Positions 890-32,219 of a DNA stretch of 37,226 bases are shown here, one piece after another. Position numbers and translations under genes: made by a program. Source of the stretch: Clostridiales bacterium (GTDB taxonomy: Bacteria; Bacillota; Clostridia; Lutisporales; Lutisporaceae); assembly GCA_012521375.1 (NCBI GenBank), contig JAAYMO010000131.1:1-37226 (forward strand). Direction: 5' to 3'. Under the pieces are notes generated by a model. That model saw only the letters and a program-made list of their open reading frames with translations. It had not been told where the DNA came from and did no database searches. Every line of letters starts with the position of its first letter. Positions within the stretch are counted from its first letter, which is position 1.

Positions 890-947
890 TCAGCAAAAAA
901 TCACTATAAATATTCATTATAAATATTTATTTGCATATTTACAGCAA

Positions 948-1062
948 GCTTATAAACTCCTTTCCAAACATGGGAGGCATGAACATTTCTATTCATACCC
1001 ATCGATCTGCAAACCGTAGACAGTTCCTTAGGTTTCCAGATTCGGAGATATTTAGTTATAAG
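948..1062 (-). ncRNA. Structured 5' leader, probable molybdenum-cofactor (Moco) riboswitch-like aptamer
   Basis: Minus strand CTCCGAATCTGGAAACCTAAGGAACTGTCTACGGTTTGCAGATCGATGGGTATGAATAGAAATGTTCATGCCTCCCATGTTTGGAAAGGAG; closing CTCC/GGAG, hairpin ATGAA/TTCAT, and the CUCCGA...GGAAAC...AUGCCUCC...GGAAAGGAG signature I associate with the Moco RNA motif. Confidence 0.55.
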
Positions 1063-20663: not shown

Positions 20664-21677
20664 TTACAACGCCAGATTAGGTATTGCGTTAAGGCTCATG
20701 TCCGAAACTTCGCCTCTCATTAGCTTATAGTAGCCTGCGCTTCCTATCATAGCTGCATTATCGGTACAGAGTATAGGATCTGGATACAATACTTGGATCC
20801 CCTTTTTTGCTCCTTTATTTCTAAGCTCTTCCCTCAATTTGCTGTTGGCGGCTACACCTCCTGCCAGCACTGCATAAGGTGAATTTTTCTCCTCCGCTGC
20901 CGCAATCAATTTATCTGACAGTACATCAACTACAGCCTGTTGAAAGCTAGCAGCCACATCCGGAATATTTGGCTTTATTCCTTTCATTTTTAAACTGTTG
21001 AGATAATTTAGTACGGCAGATTTTAATCCGCTAAAACTGAAATCATAGCTTCCTTCTTCCAGATAAGCTCTTGGAAAATCTATAGCAGTTGGATCTCCTT
21101 CTTTAGCAATATTATCCACCAGAGGGCCTCCCGGATAGCCTAACCCCAGTGCTCTAGCTATTTTATCAAAAGCTTCCCCTGCAGCATCATCTCTTGTCAT
21201 ACCCATAATCTCATATTTTCCGTAATCAAGCATATTCACTATATGGCTATGTCCTCCAGACGCTACCAAGCACACAAAGGGCGGTTCTAGCTCTTTGTAC
21301 TGAATAAAATTAGCATAAATATGACCTTCTATATGATTCACACCTATTAAAGATAATTTTCTTGCATAGGCCAAAGCTTTTGCAGTAGTCAAACCTATGA
21401 GTAAAGCTCCCACCAATCCAGGTCCATAGGTTACAGCAATACCATCTAAATCATCAAAGCTTAACTCTGCTTCATTTAACGCTGTATCTATCACATGACT
21501 TATATTTTCTATATGCTTCCTCGATGCAACCTCAGGCACCACACCGCCAAATTTCTTATGATCTTTTATCTGACTTGATATTATATTTGAAAGGATGTGT
21601 CTTCCATTCTTTATAACAGCCGCAGAGGTCTCATCACATGAGCTCTCTATAGCTAGGATAATTGTATCTTTTCCCAC
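20664..21677 (-). CDS. tsaD: tRNA N6-adenosine threonylcarbamoyltransferase TsaD
   Basis: [25 protein letters not shown]...[34 protein letters not shown] track start at 21737 but GTG at 21677 has RBS GGAGAGATGAAAAA. Confidence 0.95.
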
Positions 21678-21764
21678 TTTTTCATCTCTCCTATAAGCAA
21701 GGCATTTGAAGTTTATTTCATACATTAGCATGCACAAAAGGCAGGATAATATCCTGCCTCGATG

Positions 21765-24218: not shown

Positions 24219-25352
24219 TCAGAGCTCCAACCACATTATTAATGCATCTTCTCCTGAATCTTCATAATAGCCTCTTCTCACTCCGTACTCATTAAAACCA
24301 TATTTTTTATATAGATTGATGGCAGCCCAATTGGATGGCCTCACCTCTAAGGTCATTCTTTTTACATTATTATCTTTGGCAGTTTTTATCATAGCATTCA
24401 CTAAAGCATCTCCGATTTTTTTACCTCGATGTTCAGGATGTACTGCTATATTTGTTATATGTCCTTCATCCAGTACAATCCACATTCCAGCATAACCTAC
24501 AACCTTATCCTCCAATTTTGCCACCAAGTATTTTGCTGCAGTATTCTTATATATTTCTGTTTTAAAAGATTCCAAAGACCAGGGAGTATTAAAACTTAAA
24601 CATTCAATATCATAAACAGCTTCAATATCTTCACCTGTCATAGGTGAAATATCGATTTTTAGCTTCTTTTCGTATTCCACTTCTGCTTGAGATTTTCTTA
24701 TATAGTAAAGCTTTAATTCATCGTATTTTAATGCCTTGCCTTCTTTATATAACTTTTCTGCCAAGAGGGCCACAGATGAAGCTCTTGGATATAAATTTCC
24801 TGAAGAGGATTCTATAATATTAGGAAGAGCCGCCTTTAGCTTTTTTCCAAAAATACTCACAGCATCCCCTAGTATTACAATCCTTCCATTGAATTCCCCA
24901 AGTCTATCTATTAAATTATCAATCTCTATAGCCCTGTACTCTTCCAGTTTTTTTAATTCATTATCCCTTGTTGTGTATAGAGATGAGTATACCATATTTC
25001 TCTGGGCATCTAACATCGGACATATAAGTCCATGAAAGGGATAAACATTAAATGCTAATGCATCTAAAGTAGGCACAGCTATAACAGGTTTGTTTAAAGC
25101 CTGCCCGAATCCCTTTACGGCAGCAGCCCCAAGCCTTAAGCCTGTGAAAGAACCTGGCCCTATAGAACATGCAAAAGCATCTATGCTGTTGATTTCAATA
25201 CCGCTGTTTTCTAACGCAATGTTTACAATGTTTATCATCTTCTCTGAATGTTTTTTGCCATCGTTTATTGTAAATTCACATAGCAGTGAACCATTTTCTA
25301 CTATAGCTGAAGAAGCAGCTGCTGTGGAAGTATCAATGGCCAATATTCTCAC
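24219..25352 (-). CDS. TsaB fused to RimI-type GNAT acetyltransferase
   Basis: MRILAIDTSTAAASSAIVENG...GPGSFTGLRLGAAAVKGFGQALNKPVIAVPTLDALA, then SPMTGEDIEAVYDIECLSFNTPWSLESF...NIAVHPEHRGKKIGDALVNAMI...EVRPSNWAAINLYKKYGF. Confidence 0.95.
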   Translation of the reverse strand: MRILAIDTSTAAASSAIVENGSLLCEFTINDGKKHSEKMINIVNIALENSGIEINSIDAFACSIGPGSFTGLRLGAAAVKGFGQALNKPVIAVPTLDALAFNVYPFHGLICPMLDAQRNMVYSSLYTTRDNELKKLEEYRAIEIDNLIDRLGEFNGRIVILGDAVSIFGKKLKAALPNIIESSSGNLYPRASSVALLAEKLYKEGKALKYDELKLYYIRKSQAEVEYEKKLKIDISPMTGEDIEAVYDIECLSFNTPWSLESFKTEIYKNTAAKYLVAKLEDKVVGYAGMWIVLDEGHITNIAVHPEHRGKKIGDALVNAMIKTAKDNNVKRMTLEVRPSNWAAINLYKKYGFNEYGVRRGYYEDSGEDALIMWLEL

Positions 25353-26570: not shown

Positions 26571-26599
26571 ATTTTTAAAATAACTCATAAAAATAAATC

Positions 26600-26700
26600 T
26601 TCTTCCATCCAGACTATACTGTCGGCTCCGGAATCTAACCGGATCTGCCTTTCGGCTCGCGGGCTATACCGCCGGTAGGGAATTGCACCCGTCCCTGAAG
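26600..26700 (-). ncRNA. FMN riboswitch (RFN element)
   Basis: Minus strand CTTCAGGGACGGGTGCAATTCCCTACCGGCGGTATAGCCCGCGAGCCGAAAGGCAGATCCGGTTAGATTCCGGAGCCGACAGTATAGTCTGGATGGAAGA. Confidence 0.97.
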
Positions 26701-26743
26701 ATTGTAATCGGTCTTTAGTTTTCAAATATATTATATATTAACT

Positions 26744-28411
26744 TTAACTGCTTTGCAATACAGTTTTATCGCTAATATCCTGTTCAGCTATGAGTAATTC
26801 TTCAATCCTTTCTTTTTCTGTAACTACTCTATTGAGTTTTTTGGAATAAGCTATACATTTTCCATCTACAATCCTTGTCTCCAAAGCACCTTTAGCATTT
26901 GGATTTCCTCTTAGATGAGGAGCATCGATAATTCCTCTTCTTATAATATCTTCTAAAACTTTTGGATCGCTCCATGGATCTTCGCTTTCTTTATACAGGT
27001 TTTTAATGGTATTCAATAAAAATTTTGATTCTTCTATCAGCTCATGCTTTCTTTCCTGAACTTCTGAATCCTTGGTCATATCAACCATGCCATCTAATGT
27101 TGAACGGATAACTCCTCTTACAATTTTTGTGCTTTCAATGATTTCTTCTGGTTTGGCAGCATGATCTGCTTCGCAATATCCTACTACATGGACAATATGA
27201 GGCTTTAAGCTCATAGCTAAATATGTGGATGCGGCAAGTTGTCCTTTTGCAACATCCAAATCTGAGCTTAGACTTGCCAATCCGGCTCTTACTTGCCTAT
27301 AGGTTTTAAAATCATCATCCTCTAATGATTCAATAAGCTCAACCTTGGCCAACATTTTTGCCAAATCCATTTTATGATGCATTGCTGGAGGCACATTAAA
27401 CATATATTGGGCAATATAATTCTTTACTCCCATTTTTTTCGCATTGTATGCAGCTAAAAAGGCCGTCACAACACCTATAGTATCATGAGCATCTCTTAGA
27501 CTCCAATGATGAGCCTCATTTACTTCCACAGGTATATTCCATTCTGCATGCTGCTTCATCAGATTTTGGCTTTCTGCTATGGATTCGCTTAAAGACCTTG
27601 TACCCCTTCCGTCCAGCACATTGTACCAGCATAAAGGTACAGCACACCATGCATTTTTTATGGTGTCTTTCAGCATTTCTGCAAATTTGAATACATCTGC
27701 CGTTCCACTATAGCATCTGAGGAGAGGATAATTGCCCCGCTTTGAAGCTTTATAAAGCTCAATGAAATCATCTGGGCTCCGTAATGGCACTCCTCCTGCT
27801 CCATCCAAGTCCTTATTCAGCTTATCCTGTGAGAAAAAGAACTGTTGTGTATTTTGATCAGGTCCAATAGAAATAACATCTAAAACCTTTGCCTCAGCTA
27901 TCTTTTTGATTCCTTCAATGGTATCCTCCAAAGAAGGAAGGCCAAAATGATGTCTCAATACTGGGTAAGGATATTTACTGTTTATTCTATCAATAATATT
28001 ATCAGGATAAGATATTTTTATTTCTTTCAGATGTTTACCTCTTATATAATTTATCACATCATCTATGTCTTCCGTTCCATCAAATATGGTAGAAAAATAT
28101 GAGAAATTTTTTGCAACCTCAGCTACTGGCTTTGTACCTCCAAATATCCATTCTATATTATCTAATTTTTTAGATTTTATATGCCCTTCCAATTCCCTGA
28201 ACAATGGTTCAGCATTTTTGGGAGTAAGCCTGAATCCTATAGCCACTACATCCGGTTTTATTTCTAATATTTTTTCTACAAGCCTATCTATGCTTACCGC
28301 AGCACCGAGAAAATATGTTTCGTGACCTTCCTGTTCCACAAGACGGAAAAAATTTACTATCCCACCTACATGAACACAATTTCCTATGGCAGCTCCTAAA
28401 TACTTTTTCAT
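26744..28411 (-). CDS. Cobalamin-binding, mutase-like protein (N-terminal B12-binding fold; remainder resembles methylaspartate-mutase-E-type barrel)
   Basis: N-term CVHVGGIVNFFRLVEQEGHETYFLGAAVSIDRLVEKILEIKPDVVAIGFRLTP...FGG; downstream DGRGTRSLSESI...VEVNEAHHWSLRDAHDT...EADHAAKPEEIIESTKIV...DAPHLRGNPNAKGALETRIVDGKC. Confidence 0.65.
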   Translation of the reverse strand: MKKYLGAAIGNCVHVGGIVNFFRLVEQEGHETYFLGAAVSIDRLVEKILEIKPDVVAIGFRLTPKNAEPLFRELEGHIKSKKLDNIEWIFGGTKPVAEVAKNFSYFSTIFDGTEDIDDVINYIRGKHLKEIKISYPDNIIDRINSKYPYPVLRHHFGLPSLEDTIEGIKKIAEAKVLDVISIGPDQNTQQFFFSQDKLNKDLDGAGGVPLRSPDDFIELYKASKRGNYPLLRCYSGTADVFKFAEMLKDTIKNAWCAVPLCWYNVLDGRGTRSLSESIAESQNLMKQHAEWNIPVEVNEAHHWSLRDAHDTIGVVTAFLAAYNAKKMGVKNYIAQYMFNVPPAMHHKMDLAKMLAKVELIESLEDDDFKTYRQVRAGLASLSSDLDVAKGQLAASTYLAMSLKPHIVHVVGYCEADHAAKPEEIIESTKIVRGVIRSTLDGMVDMTKDSEVQERKHELIEESKFLLNTIKNLYKESEDPWSDPKVLEDIIRRGIIDAPHLRGNPNAKGALETRIVDGKCIAYSKKLNRVVTEKERIEELLIAEQDISDKTVLQSS

Positions 28412-29526
28412 TAAGCCACCACCTCCCTTGTTATTTCTCCATTAATTACATAGTTCATTATCTCTTCTGCTTCTAATCCAACAAGTCCCATATCCTCAAC
28501 TTTTCTGCCAATCTTATAATAATCCTTATCATGTATGATAGATGCCATATGGATTATTGAATTTATAGTGGGAGTTTCAATCCCTAAATGCATTCCCATA
28601 TCTGCAATGGGTACAAGGCTTTGAGGAACATCTTCAAATATATATCTTGTGTCCAAAGTATTCGGCGCCTTTATCCCCTTATACCCTTTGACATTTTGTA
28701 GTGCCTCGCATACTGTTTTGCCATAAGCATTGTAGGTGTAACCTAACCATTCCATTAAAGATATAGGTTTAGCACCGAGTGCTTCTGCTACTTTCATCCT
28801 CTCACAATCCGCTTCTTTCATTATCCTAGCCACTGATGGAGTTACCCCTTCAATATAGTGCAAGAAATTTCCATCGGTGCTTTCAATCCTTCCGCAATTG
28901 AGAATAGTAGGAATAGGATGTAGTATAGCTCCAACATTATTAAAACTGGTATCCAATACACTACAAGTTTGGATGAATTCTGGTATGACATGATGGATTT
29001 TATCAACAAATTCTCTGGTCCTAACCGCAGGCAATGCAGCTACCTTAACATGATTCTTCTTTCCATATATGGCCACCTTGCCTTCTTCAACAATTCTGCA
29101 GGCAAACAACAATGTTTGTGCTTCAACTATACATGGATTTTTTTCAGGATTAATATTTTTTATAATATTGAAAAATTCCAATGCGCCTCCCGTTCTGCCC
29201 GGGTTTAATACAATGTACTGTTCATCTGAAGTATATGGAGCTATAAGGCTGGCAACTTGTTTATGAGCACTGGCAGGTACTGCCACCATCACGATATGGG
29301 TATCTCTGATTGCTTCTTGTATATCATCTGTTACTAGATTCATGTAACCTTTACCTGATATACAACCTTCCATATCAATAAAACCCTGCTCTGATATCTT
29401 TTTTATTTTTGCTATAGTACGATTGTATAGATTAACATTATGTCCCAAATAGGCTAAGTAAGCTGCTAAAGCCTGCCCTCCGCTTCCGCCTCCTATGACA
29501 GCAAAATTCAAAACTCTCTTCTGCAT
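28411..29526 (-). CDS. NAD/NADP octopine/nopaline dehydrogenase family protein
   Basis: FAVIGGGSGGQALAAYLAYLGHNVNLYNRT Rossmann; VLNPGRTGGALEFFNII; HPIPTILNCGRIE. MQKR start preceded by AAAGGAGGTTGT RBS. Confidence 0.88.
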   Translation of the reverse strand: MQKRVLNFAVIGGGSGGQALAAYLAYLGHNVNLYNRTIAKIKKISEQGFIDMEGCISGKGYMNLVTDDIQEAIRDTHIVMVAVPASAHKQVASLIAPYTSDEQYIVLNPGRTGGALEFFNIIKNINPEKNPCIVEAQTLLFACRIVEEGKVAIYGKKNHVKVAALPAVRTREFVDKIHHVIPEFIQTCSVLDTSFNNVGAILHPIPTILNCGRIESTDGNFLHYIEGVTPSVARIMKEADCERMKVAEALGAKPISLMEWLGYTYNAYGKTVCEALQNVKGYKGIKAPNTLDTRYIFEDVPQSLVPIADMGMHLGIETPTINSIIHMASIIHDKDYYKIGRKVEDMGLVGLEAEEIMNYVINGEITREVVA

Positions 29527-29539
29527 ATAACAACCTCCT

Positions 29540-30541
29540 TTAACCACTTGATTTTCTGTTATTCTCAACTCTTTTTATAGCCTCATCCAATATCTGCATA
29601 ACCAACTCATCATACGACATGCCTGCTGCATCAGCCATCTTTGTTAAATCACTATACACCGGTTTAAGGCCTGGTAAACTGTTTATTTCTATAATATAGG
29701 GCACATCACCCTTGAGTCTTACATCCACTCTAGCTAAATCCCTGCAACCTAACACATCAAATGCTTTAGAAGCTTCTGCTTTTATTTTCTTTTCTAATTC
29801 AGTACTCAAAGGCGCAGGACAATAAAAATGAGTTTTATGTGCAAAATCGTTTTTTACTTTAAAGCTATAAATCTTGCCATATTCCTCAGGAATATCCTTA
29901 AAGTCAATCTCCAATATAGGTAAAATTGTTTTATTCTCACCATTACCGATAATCCCTACAGTAAACTCCCGGCCTTCTATAAATTCCTCCACTAAAACCG
30001 GTGGTTGATACTGTTTCAAAAGTTGTGAAACTTTTTTAGACAAAGCTTCCTCATTGTAAACTACACTATCTTCATCTATTCCAAAACCAGAGCCTTCGCA
30101 GGCGGGTTTTACAATAAGGGGAAATTCTAGTTCAGGATCCAATTTTTCATCTTCATTACGGAATATTTGAAAATTTGCTGTAGTCACATTATGATACTTA
30201 AAAATCTGCTTTGCCACTGATTTATCTAAAGCTATGGCATGGGCAAGGACACCAGAACCTACATAGGGTATGCGCAACATTTCCAATATGGCAGGAATCT
30301 GAGACTGTCTGCTCTCTCCTCTAATTCCTGTACTAAGATTAAAAACTATATCTACATTGCTATTTTTTAATTTTTCCATTGTCTTTATATCTGCGACAAT
30401 GTTTACTACTTCATATTTTTTAGAGAGAACCTCATATATTTTCTCTGCAGTTACTTTTTTTTGCTCATCAGCAGAACGAGACTCCTCTGTATTCATCTGG
30501 AAATTTTGCTCATCTACTACTAAACCGATCTTTAATCTCAC
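29540..30541 (-). CDS. D-alanine-D-alanine ligase-like ATP-grasp protein
   Basis: VDIVFNLSTGIRGESRQSQIPAILEMLRIPYVGSG...LIVKPACEGSGFGIDEDSVV...VEEFIEGREFTVGIIGNG...ARVDVRLKGDVPYIIEINSLPGL. Confidence 0.93.
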   Translation of the reverse strand: MRLKIGLVVDEQNFQMNTEESRSADEQKKVTAEKIYEVLSKKYEVVNIVADIKTMEKLKNSNVDIVFNLSTGIRGESRQSQIPAILEMLRIPYVGSGVLAHAIALDKSVAKQIFKYHNVTTANFQIFRNEDEKLDPELEFPLIVKPACEGSGFGIDEDSVVYNEEALSKKVSQLLKQYQPPVLVEEFIEGREFTVGIIGNGENKTILPILEIDFKDIPEEYGKIYSFKVKNDFAHKTHFYCPAPLSTELEKKIKAEASKAFDVLGCRDLARVDVRLKGDVPYIIEINSLPGLKPVYSDLTKMADAAGMSYDELVMQILDEAIKRVENNRKSSG

Positions 30542-31015
30542 GCAAATCCCTCCTGTAAATCTATAAATCTACTTTTGTGATAACAGAGACAACATTAAAT
30601 AAACCTCCTATCAAATAGACACGAAGTTCCAAAAAATTATTGTTTTCTCTGTAAAGGTAAAGATTATATTCTGATTCTGTAGCATTTAGTAATAGAGATG
30701 CAAAATCTTGTCTTATTAATTTGCAAAGCCATGTGACTTTTTATTGAGATCAGAATTTGTTGTAATAATATGATTGTTAAAAATGTATATATGGAAAGGA
30801 GCTAATATTAAATCACTTTATTAATCATTATCTCGTTTGGTGATAACATCAGCCTTTATGTCCTTGACCATCTTTAACCCTGCTTTTTATTATAACTATT
30901 TTTGTTAAAATAGCAAGTATTTTTTAATATTATTTTTTCCCAAATCATTGTAATAAAGCCATTACGGAAAGTTTATATTAAGGTGGAATTATACTTTCCT
31001 GTGGCTTATAAAATG

Positions 31016-31052
31016 AAAAGCTACCGCAGAGATTAACTCTGCAATAGCTTTT
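31016..31052 (-). terminator. Terminator downstream of the amidohydrolase
   Basis: AAAAGCTACCGCAGAG-ATTAA-CTCTGCAATAGCTTTT. Confidence 0.75.
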
Positions 31053-31061
31053 GCAATAATA

Positions 31062-32219
31062 TTATCTTCTATAAACTACTTCACCATTTATCAGTACAAC
31101 TTCTGTCTTAGATGTGGTGTTAAAAGGATGTCCATCAAATATGACTATATCTGCATCCTTGCCTACCTCAATGCTGCCTACTCTGTCATCTATTTTCAAT
31201 ATCTCTGCTGGATAGATGGTTATGGCTTTTAATGCTTCCATTTCATCTAAACCTTCCTTTGCTACAAGTCCGGCGCATATGGGCAGATGCTGTATAGGTA
31301 TTACAGGATGATCTGTCATAATACAGAATTTTACTCCAGCTTTCCACAAAGCTACAGGAGATTCGTAGGTCTTGTGTTTCAATTCCGGCTTTGATCTTTC
31401 CGTAAAATGAGGACCGCTGATAACCGGTTTACCCTCTTTTGCCAATTCATCTGCTATAAGATGTCCTTCTGTACAGTGGTCCAATGTTATATCCACATCA
31501 AATTCCTTTGCAATCCTGATGGCAGTAAATACATCATCTGCCCTATGGGCATGGGCCTTCAGAGGTATTTCTTTATTAATAACCTTGAGTAAAGCTTCCA
31601 TCTTAATATCAAAATCCGGTTTCTTATCAGGATCTTCCTTGGCATTCTCCAGCTTCTCCTTATAGACTTTCGCTTTCATAAGTTGCTCTCTCAGTATGGC
31701 TGCGGTAGCCATCCTTGTAGAAGGCATCTGTTTTTTCTCGTTATAAACGGTTTTAGGGTTTTCACCAAAGGCTATCTTCATAGCTGCAGGTTCTCTGACA
31801 ATCATATCATCTATTCTTTTTCCATAGGTCTTGATGATGGTAAAGGTTCCTCCTATTACATTGGCACTACCGGGACCAGTGCATACTGTTGTAATACCTC
31901 CCTCTCTGGCTTCTTCAAAGGTTCGATCCATAGGATTTATCCCATCAATAGCTCTGAGATGAGGTGTCACAGGATCTGTAGCCTCATTACCATCAGAACC
32001 TTCAAATCCTATGGAGTCTTCCCACATACCTAGATGACAATGAGCATCGATTATACCCGGCATTACTATTTTGCCTTCTGCATCTATTACCATAGCATCT
32101 GCCGGTGCCTCAACTTCCTAGCCCACAGCTATTATCTTGCCCTTATCTATTAATACGCTTCCTTTTTCGTAGTTCTTATCAGCCATTGTAAGTATCTTAC
32201 CGTTTTTTATAAGTATCAT
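31062..32219 (-). pseudogene. Amidohydrolase (imidazolonepropionase/dihydroorotase-like) interrupted by one in-frame TAG
   Basis: Full frame MILIKNGKILTMADKNYEKGSVLIDKGKIIAVG*EVEAPADAMVIDAEGKIVMPGIIDAHCHLG...; TAG at 32118-32120 (codon 34); the rest of the frame is open to the stop. Confidence 0.75.

Follow-up and report, generated by a model that had tools for sequence, protein, structure and literature searches.

Within a 37,226-nucleotide stretch of contig JAAYMO010000131.1 from a Clostridiales bacterium (assembly GCA_012521375.1; hereafter, the window), a gene for a predicted mutase of the adenosylcobalamin (AdoCbl) type stands beside a gene for a predicted opine dehydrogenase. Comparison across genomes identifies this pair as the conserved unit, with a Ddl-like ATP-grasp ligase as a frequent third partner. 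An earlier note on the window had described three minus-strand genes encoding an ATP-grasp enzyme, an octopine-type dehydrogenase, and a B12 mutase-like protein. All three open reading frames (ORFs) were recovered where that note had placed them, tightly packed on the minus strand: the ligase at 29540 to 30541 (333 amino acids, GTG start; PF07478, E 1e-40), the dehydrogenase at 28411 to 29568 in its longest frame (Octopine_DH, PF02317, E 7e-45), and the mutase-type gene at 26744 to 28411 (555 amino acids; PF02310), in which a B12-binding domain appears fused to a glutamate-mutase-like triosephosphate isomerase (TIM) barrel. The best explanation, which we hold with moderate confidence, is a B12-dependent biosynthetic module in which a skeleton-rearranged, opine-like acid would be made and then amide-linked.

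In general, the two genes were neighbors with a shared orientation; of 97 loci examined, 92 had the dehydrogenase beside the mutase (upstream in 79 and downstream in 13), with intervening genes in three of these 92. This adjacency is far beyond chance. Two of the five loci without an adjacent pair lie at contig ends; loci with high GC content were scanned by six-frame hidden Markov model searches. The earlier note had proposed testing conservation of the whole trio. The pair withstood that comparison, while the Ddl-like ligase was found in 16 of the 97 loci and is replaced by other amide-forming enzymes in some of the others.

Of 399 genomes sampled from the phylum, about 86 (about 22%) encode full-length mutase homologs, counted at an E value of roughly 1e-100 or better; such homologs are also present in Thermotogota, and carriers include Lutispora, Sedimentibacter, Bittarella, and Oscillospiraceae. 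No homolog was found in plasmid and phage records. Distant homologs of 630 residues, with the motif DAHTLG, likewise adjoin an opine dehydrogenase, and thus the pairing is old. This distant branch (loci L037 to L041 and L111) carries the canonical form of the motif and a longer B12 domain and has no curated family. In four related genomes (L087, L134, L135, and L136), inspection by eye revealed an N-acetylmuramoyl-L-alanine-amidase-like gene and a small membrane protein downstream of the mutase, possibly a prophage remnant or a wall-related function.

Fold and substrate site of the 555-residue protein

The sole Pfam match of the 555-residue protein was to PF02310 (residues 5 to 94, E 1.7e-7), just below the Pfam cutoff, and no NCBIfam model covers the chain. 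At its curated cutoff, PF06368 did not match the window protein; it matched two relatives (L018 and L034) weakly and below cutoff. AlphaFold2 run on the single sequence gave a predicted local distance difference test (pLDDT) score of 39, which is not usable. With a 29-row alignment (28 relatives), the same program produced a confident two-domain model (pLDDT 89.3), consisting of an N-terminal, Rossmann-like B12-binding domain (28037 to 28411, minus strand; residues about 1 to 125, also supported by PF02310) and a C-terminal TIM barrel related to MutE (26882 to 27994, minus strand; residues about 140 to 510). A Foldseek search, which the earlier note had suggested as a check, returned the epsilon chain of glutamate mutase as the best solved fold (6h9e_B and 1cb7_B; E 9e-16 and 1e-15; probability 1.00) and supports the mutase-like label. 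The next matches were lysine 5,6-aminomutase and ornithine 4,5-aminomutase, followed by methylmalonyl-CoA-type mutases. Profile alignment by hhalign against MutE covered the full length of the barrel (E 9e-6, improving to 6e-9 when 121 relatives were included), with the MutE profile built from four or five real MutE proteins, mostly from MutL-MutE-methylaspartase operons. By its modeled fold, the protein is an AdoCbl-mutase-type enzyme and constitutes a separate branch of the glutamate-mutase fold for which there is no curated family.

The predicted cobalamin-ligand motif is CVHVGG (28361 to 28378, minus strand; residues 12 to 17), a CxHxxG sequence whose register was taken from homologous loci. 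An alternative reading as NxVxxG, which lacks the histidine, was rejected, as relatives with DVHVAG fix the register. Across the homologous loci, the motif reads CxHxxG in 81 and DxHxxG in 13; the His and Gly are kept, and the Asp is replaced by Cys in most.

Association with the reactivase MutL provides further evidence on the class of enzyme. Mutase-MutL fusions were found in two genomes, at L082 (PF13941, E 7.5e-82) and L081, and MutL adjoins the mutase in six further loci; this association ties the family to AdoCbl mutases dependent on reactivation. The two fusions (1739 to 5383 of L081 and 2306 to 6007 of L082; about 1,215 to 1,235 residues) are natural all-in-one proteins of mutase plus reactivase. 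The genome of the window has one MutL, located within an ornithine-aminomutase operon, and no MutE was found in it. These data also bear on the alternative of a B12-dependent methyltransferase or sensor instead of a mutase. The sequence of the B12 domain is indeed most like corrinoid proteins and methionine synthase, but the whole-chain fold and the profile match mutases, and a fusion to MutL is at odds with either role, which makes this identity highly improbable.

In glutamate mutase, R66 and R149 (with E171) bind the glycyl part of the substrate, while R100 (with Y177) binds the acrylate part (PMC9545868). In the aligned columns of the window protein, this arginine claw (R66/R100/R149) is replaced by H155, Q189, and Y234, which are invariant in 29 relatives, including the 630-residue group. 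The natural reading of the alignment is that the substrate differs from glutamate and probably lacks its distal carboxylate. R153 and R232 are also invariant; because each lies two residues before H155 and Y234, respectively, they could share a barrel face with these two residues. The profile alignment also indicates that E330 of glutamate mutase, which we take to contact the adenosine ribose, is retained as E414. Finally, the B12 domain (residues 1 to 130 of the relatives' alignment) contains no invariant Lys, as the pyridoxal phosphate (PLP) site of aminomutases would need, which argues against PLP-dependent aminomutase chemistry.

Taken together, these residues lend no support to glutamate and ornithine, which the earlier note had put forward for assay. 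The shared fold and the MutL association would be accounted for if the protein were a fused form of genuine glutamate mutase or of a PLP-dependent aminomutase. That reading is nevertheless very improbable given the replaced claw and the missing Lys, and no methylaspartase adjoins the gene, unlike in the true MutL-MutE operons found in the same analysis.

Amide-forming partners and the proposed pathway

The dehydrogenase is homologous over its full length to N-(1-D-carboxyethyl)-L-norvaline dehydrogenase (CENDH; 1bg6, E 2.4e-78), to which it is about 40% identical, and alignment indicates conservation of the catalytic His and the Arg/Asp segment of 1bg6, which we take to supply the catalytic His and Asp and the substrate-binding Arg. 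On this sequence evidence, we assign it to the CENDH-type opine dehydrogenases.

The ligase, by comparison with Ddl, scored below both curated cutoffs (209.8 versus 243 and 189.8 versus 245.65) and falls in a clade separate from canonical Ddl (support 100/100). Relative to the canonical Ddl of relatives, it is missing the N-terminal GGxSxExEVS motif, and its C-terminal substrate loop is altered and one residue longer. Close relatives encode a canonical Ddl as well as this ligase. We considered whether the ligase might be the only Ddl of the cell and rejected the idea; a canonical Ddl was not found in the incomplete assembly of the window's genome, yet close relatives have both. A role resembling vancomycin resistance or peptidoglycan tailoring, in which the ligase would join D-Ala to an opine-like or rearranged acid instead of to D-Ala (cf. 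VanH-VanA), is suggested by the match to Van/Ddl models and by a dehydrogenase adjoining a Ddl-like ligase, reminiscent of VanHA. However, the changes in motif and loop speak against it, no VanX, VanS/VanR, or Mur genes recur near the pair, and the ligase is optional; we deem such a role very unlikely.

A Ddl-like gene lies within 4 kb of the pair in the 16 loci mentioned above (12 co-directional), which include the group of the window and Thermotogota. As a rough chance expectation, three Ddl-like genes per 3-Mb genome would place about one near the 97 loci. Three different ATP-grasp types occur near the pair in 19 of the 97 loci. At L009 and L090, a PylC/LAL-type ATP-grasp adjoins the pair, and genes for a DegT aminotransferase and for glycan biosynthesis lie close by. 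At L104, an ATPgrasp_Ter protein is encoded between the dehydrogenase and the mutase; the surrounding cluster also encodes Wzx-like, Wzy_C, glycosyltransferase, and hexapeptide proteins. At L131, L133, L145, and L095, the gene abutting the mutase encodes an AsnB-type synthetase (Pfam confirmed for the first three). The occurrence of several unrelated, ATP-dependent, amide-forming partners thus suggests independent recruitment of carboxylate-activating enzymes. ATP-grasp labels change 7 to 10 times on a FastTree tree, a figure that is indicative only and carries a long-branch warning.

In the proposed pathway, the 555-residue protein would use AdoCbl to isomerize the carbon skeleton of a non-glutamate, amino-acid-type substrate, with MutL, where present, reactivating it. 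Before or after this rearrangement, the CENDH-type dehydrogenase would use NAD(P)H to condense an amine with a 2-oxo acid (reductive amination) or would oxidize such a compound. In the window, the Ddl-like ATP-grasp would then activate the resulting carboxylate and couple it, through an amide bond, to an amino acid or some other amine. Genomes with a PylC/LAL-type or ATPgrasp_Ter enzyme probably use it to link the acid to a surface-glycan amino sugar; alternatively, an AsnB-type enzyme may amidate the acid. There is precedent for such a linkage in Providencia O-antigens, in which alanopine is amide-linked to Qui4N and carboxyethyl-lysine also occurs (PMC10609480).

The earlier note had allowed that the trio could make or degrade an opine or pseudopeptide metabolite. 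Recurrent ATP-consuming, amide-forming partners and the three glycan-cluster contexts (L009, L090, and L104) favor making over degrading. A catabolic module, modeled on the routes by which anaerobes ferment glutamate, lysine, and ornithine, would instead have the dehydrogenase cleave an opine oxidatively (or oxidize an amino acid) and the mutase rearrange the released amino acid for fermentation, with the ligase incidental or acting in salvage. The ornithine route (OraSE and Ord), which is present in the same genome (contig C208), likewise combines a mutase with a dehydrogenase; many carriers, such as Lutispora and Sedimentibacter, are amino-acid fermenters, and most pairs have no ligase. However, genes for a thiolase, a CoA-transferase, a deaminase, or a dedicated amino-acid transporter do not recur next to the pair, where ATP-consuming amide-forming enzymes are the most recurrent neighbors, and catabolism makes little sense for the glycan-cluster copies. 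We regard the catabolic module as possible but rather unlikely.

Several points weigh against the biosynthetic module. Roughly three in four pairs lack a linked amide-forming gene, and the pair may have a function of its own, with the ligases being add-ons; in amino-acid fermenters, it could act catabolically. Four of the Ddl-like ligases are divergently oriented, and chance could account for the AsnB adjacency at some loci. The active-site register derives from an hhalign profile alignment of moderate strength (95% probability), not from a crystal-structure superposition. Moreover, the open-licence literature searched (opine/octopine dehydrogenase with B12 mutase) assigns no name, substrate, product, or pathway to the pair; the earlier note had likewise recognized no named pathway with the trio, and none matching was found.

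The component superfamilies are known; within its own, the mutase forms a new branch whose substrate site is changed. In its broadest form, the biosynthetic proposal is a widespread, unnamed pathway of anaerobes in which a new AdoCbl mutase and an opine dehydrogenase would build a skeleton-rearranged, opine-type amino acid that interchangeable ATP-dependent enzymes would amide-link to peptides or surface sugars; we put this forward tentatively, as somewhat short of an even prospect. To our knowledge, the AdoCbl mutase reactions described so far are few, and every addition has opened a pathway. This mutase branch lacks a curated family, occurs in roughly a fifth of the genomes sampled from the phylum, and is locked to an opine dehydrogenase; through it, many anaerobes of the gut and the environment would gain a B12-dependent function, and it would hint at opine-like metabolites or glycan decorations of an uncharacterized class. 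The pairing makes the proposal directly testable with two soluble enzymes.

Gene boundaries and neighboring features

For the dehydrogenase, ATG 29526 is a more likely start than TTG 29568 (giving 28411 to 29526, minus strand; 371 amino acids), because a Shine-Dalgarno sequence (AGGAGG, 29534 to 29539, minus strand) directly follows the ligase stop codon (29540 to 29542). The identity that the earlier note gave this enzyme stands, while its start is revised. With this start, the gap between ligase and dehydrogenase is 13 nucleotides. The ligase is preceded by its own Shine-Dalgarno sequence (AGGAGGG, 30548 to 30554, minus strand). The reported TAATG overlap was confirmed at 28409 to 28413 (minus strand), with base 28411 common to the dehydrogenase stop (TAA, 28411 to 28413) and the mutase start (ATG, 28409 to 28411).

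The upstream limit of this translationally coupled three-gene unit is the intrinsic terminator of an amidohydrolase gene (31016 to 31052, minus strand). Downstream, a flavin mononucleotide (FMN) riboswitch followed by a terminator (26593 to 26706, minus strand) precedes a gene for a RibU-like energy-coupling factor transporter. A link between the unit and RibU was rejected, as RibU has its own riboswitch and terminator. The amidohydrolase gene (31062 to 32219, minus strand) contains an in-frame TAG near its 5' end (32118 to 32120), attributable to an error in assembly or to a recent nonsense mutation; the Lutispora thermophila homolog is intact. Elsewhere in the window, a molybdenum/tungsten (Moco) riboswitch aptamer (941 to 1059, minus strand; 81.3 bits) lies just downstream of a same-strand chaperonin-like gene. 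An ORF at 24219 to 25352 (minus strand) appears by eye to fuse a TsaB-like domain to a RimI-like acetyltransferase and adjoins a TsaE-like ORF, and a Pfam-type domain search placed TsaD at 20664 to 21737.

Comparison with known systems

The closest known system is glutamate mutase (GlmS/MutS plus GlmE/MutE, with MutL; EC 5.4.99.1). Both have a B12 Rossmann domain and a TIM barrel, E330 (E414) and several other barrel residues are common to both, and MutL is a partner there and a partner or fused in the window-type family. In contrast, the window-type protein is a single chain, mostly has CxHxxG for DxHxxG, has the claw replaced, and is paired with an opine dehydrogenase, not a methylaspartase. 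Ornithine 4,5- and lysine 5,6-aminomutases, the second-best folds, also combine a TIM barrel with a B12 domain, and their mutase-dehydrogenase pathway logic is similar. The 555-residue protein differs from them in having no invariant B12-domain Lys for PLP, in belonging to a distinct sequence family, and in the N-terminal position of its B12 domain.

Full-length homology and the kept catalytic His and Arg/Asp connect the window dehydrogenase to CENDH (1bg6) and octopine dehydrogenase, from which the window type is set apart by its fixed genomic pairing with a B12 mutase. Similarly, the ligase shares the ATP-grasp domain PF07478 with the Ddl/Van family but sits in its separate clade, without the Ddl N-terminal motif and with an altered substrate loop, and coexists with canonical Ddl in relatives. 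For the opine O-antigens of Providencia, the part of the account considered here (PMC10609480) reports no B12 mutase, and the window operon has no adjoining glycan genes. What that system offers is a precedent for an opine-amino sugar amide, and three loci homologous to that of the window combine ATP-grasp, opine dehydrogenase, and glycan genes.

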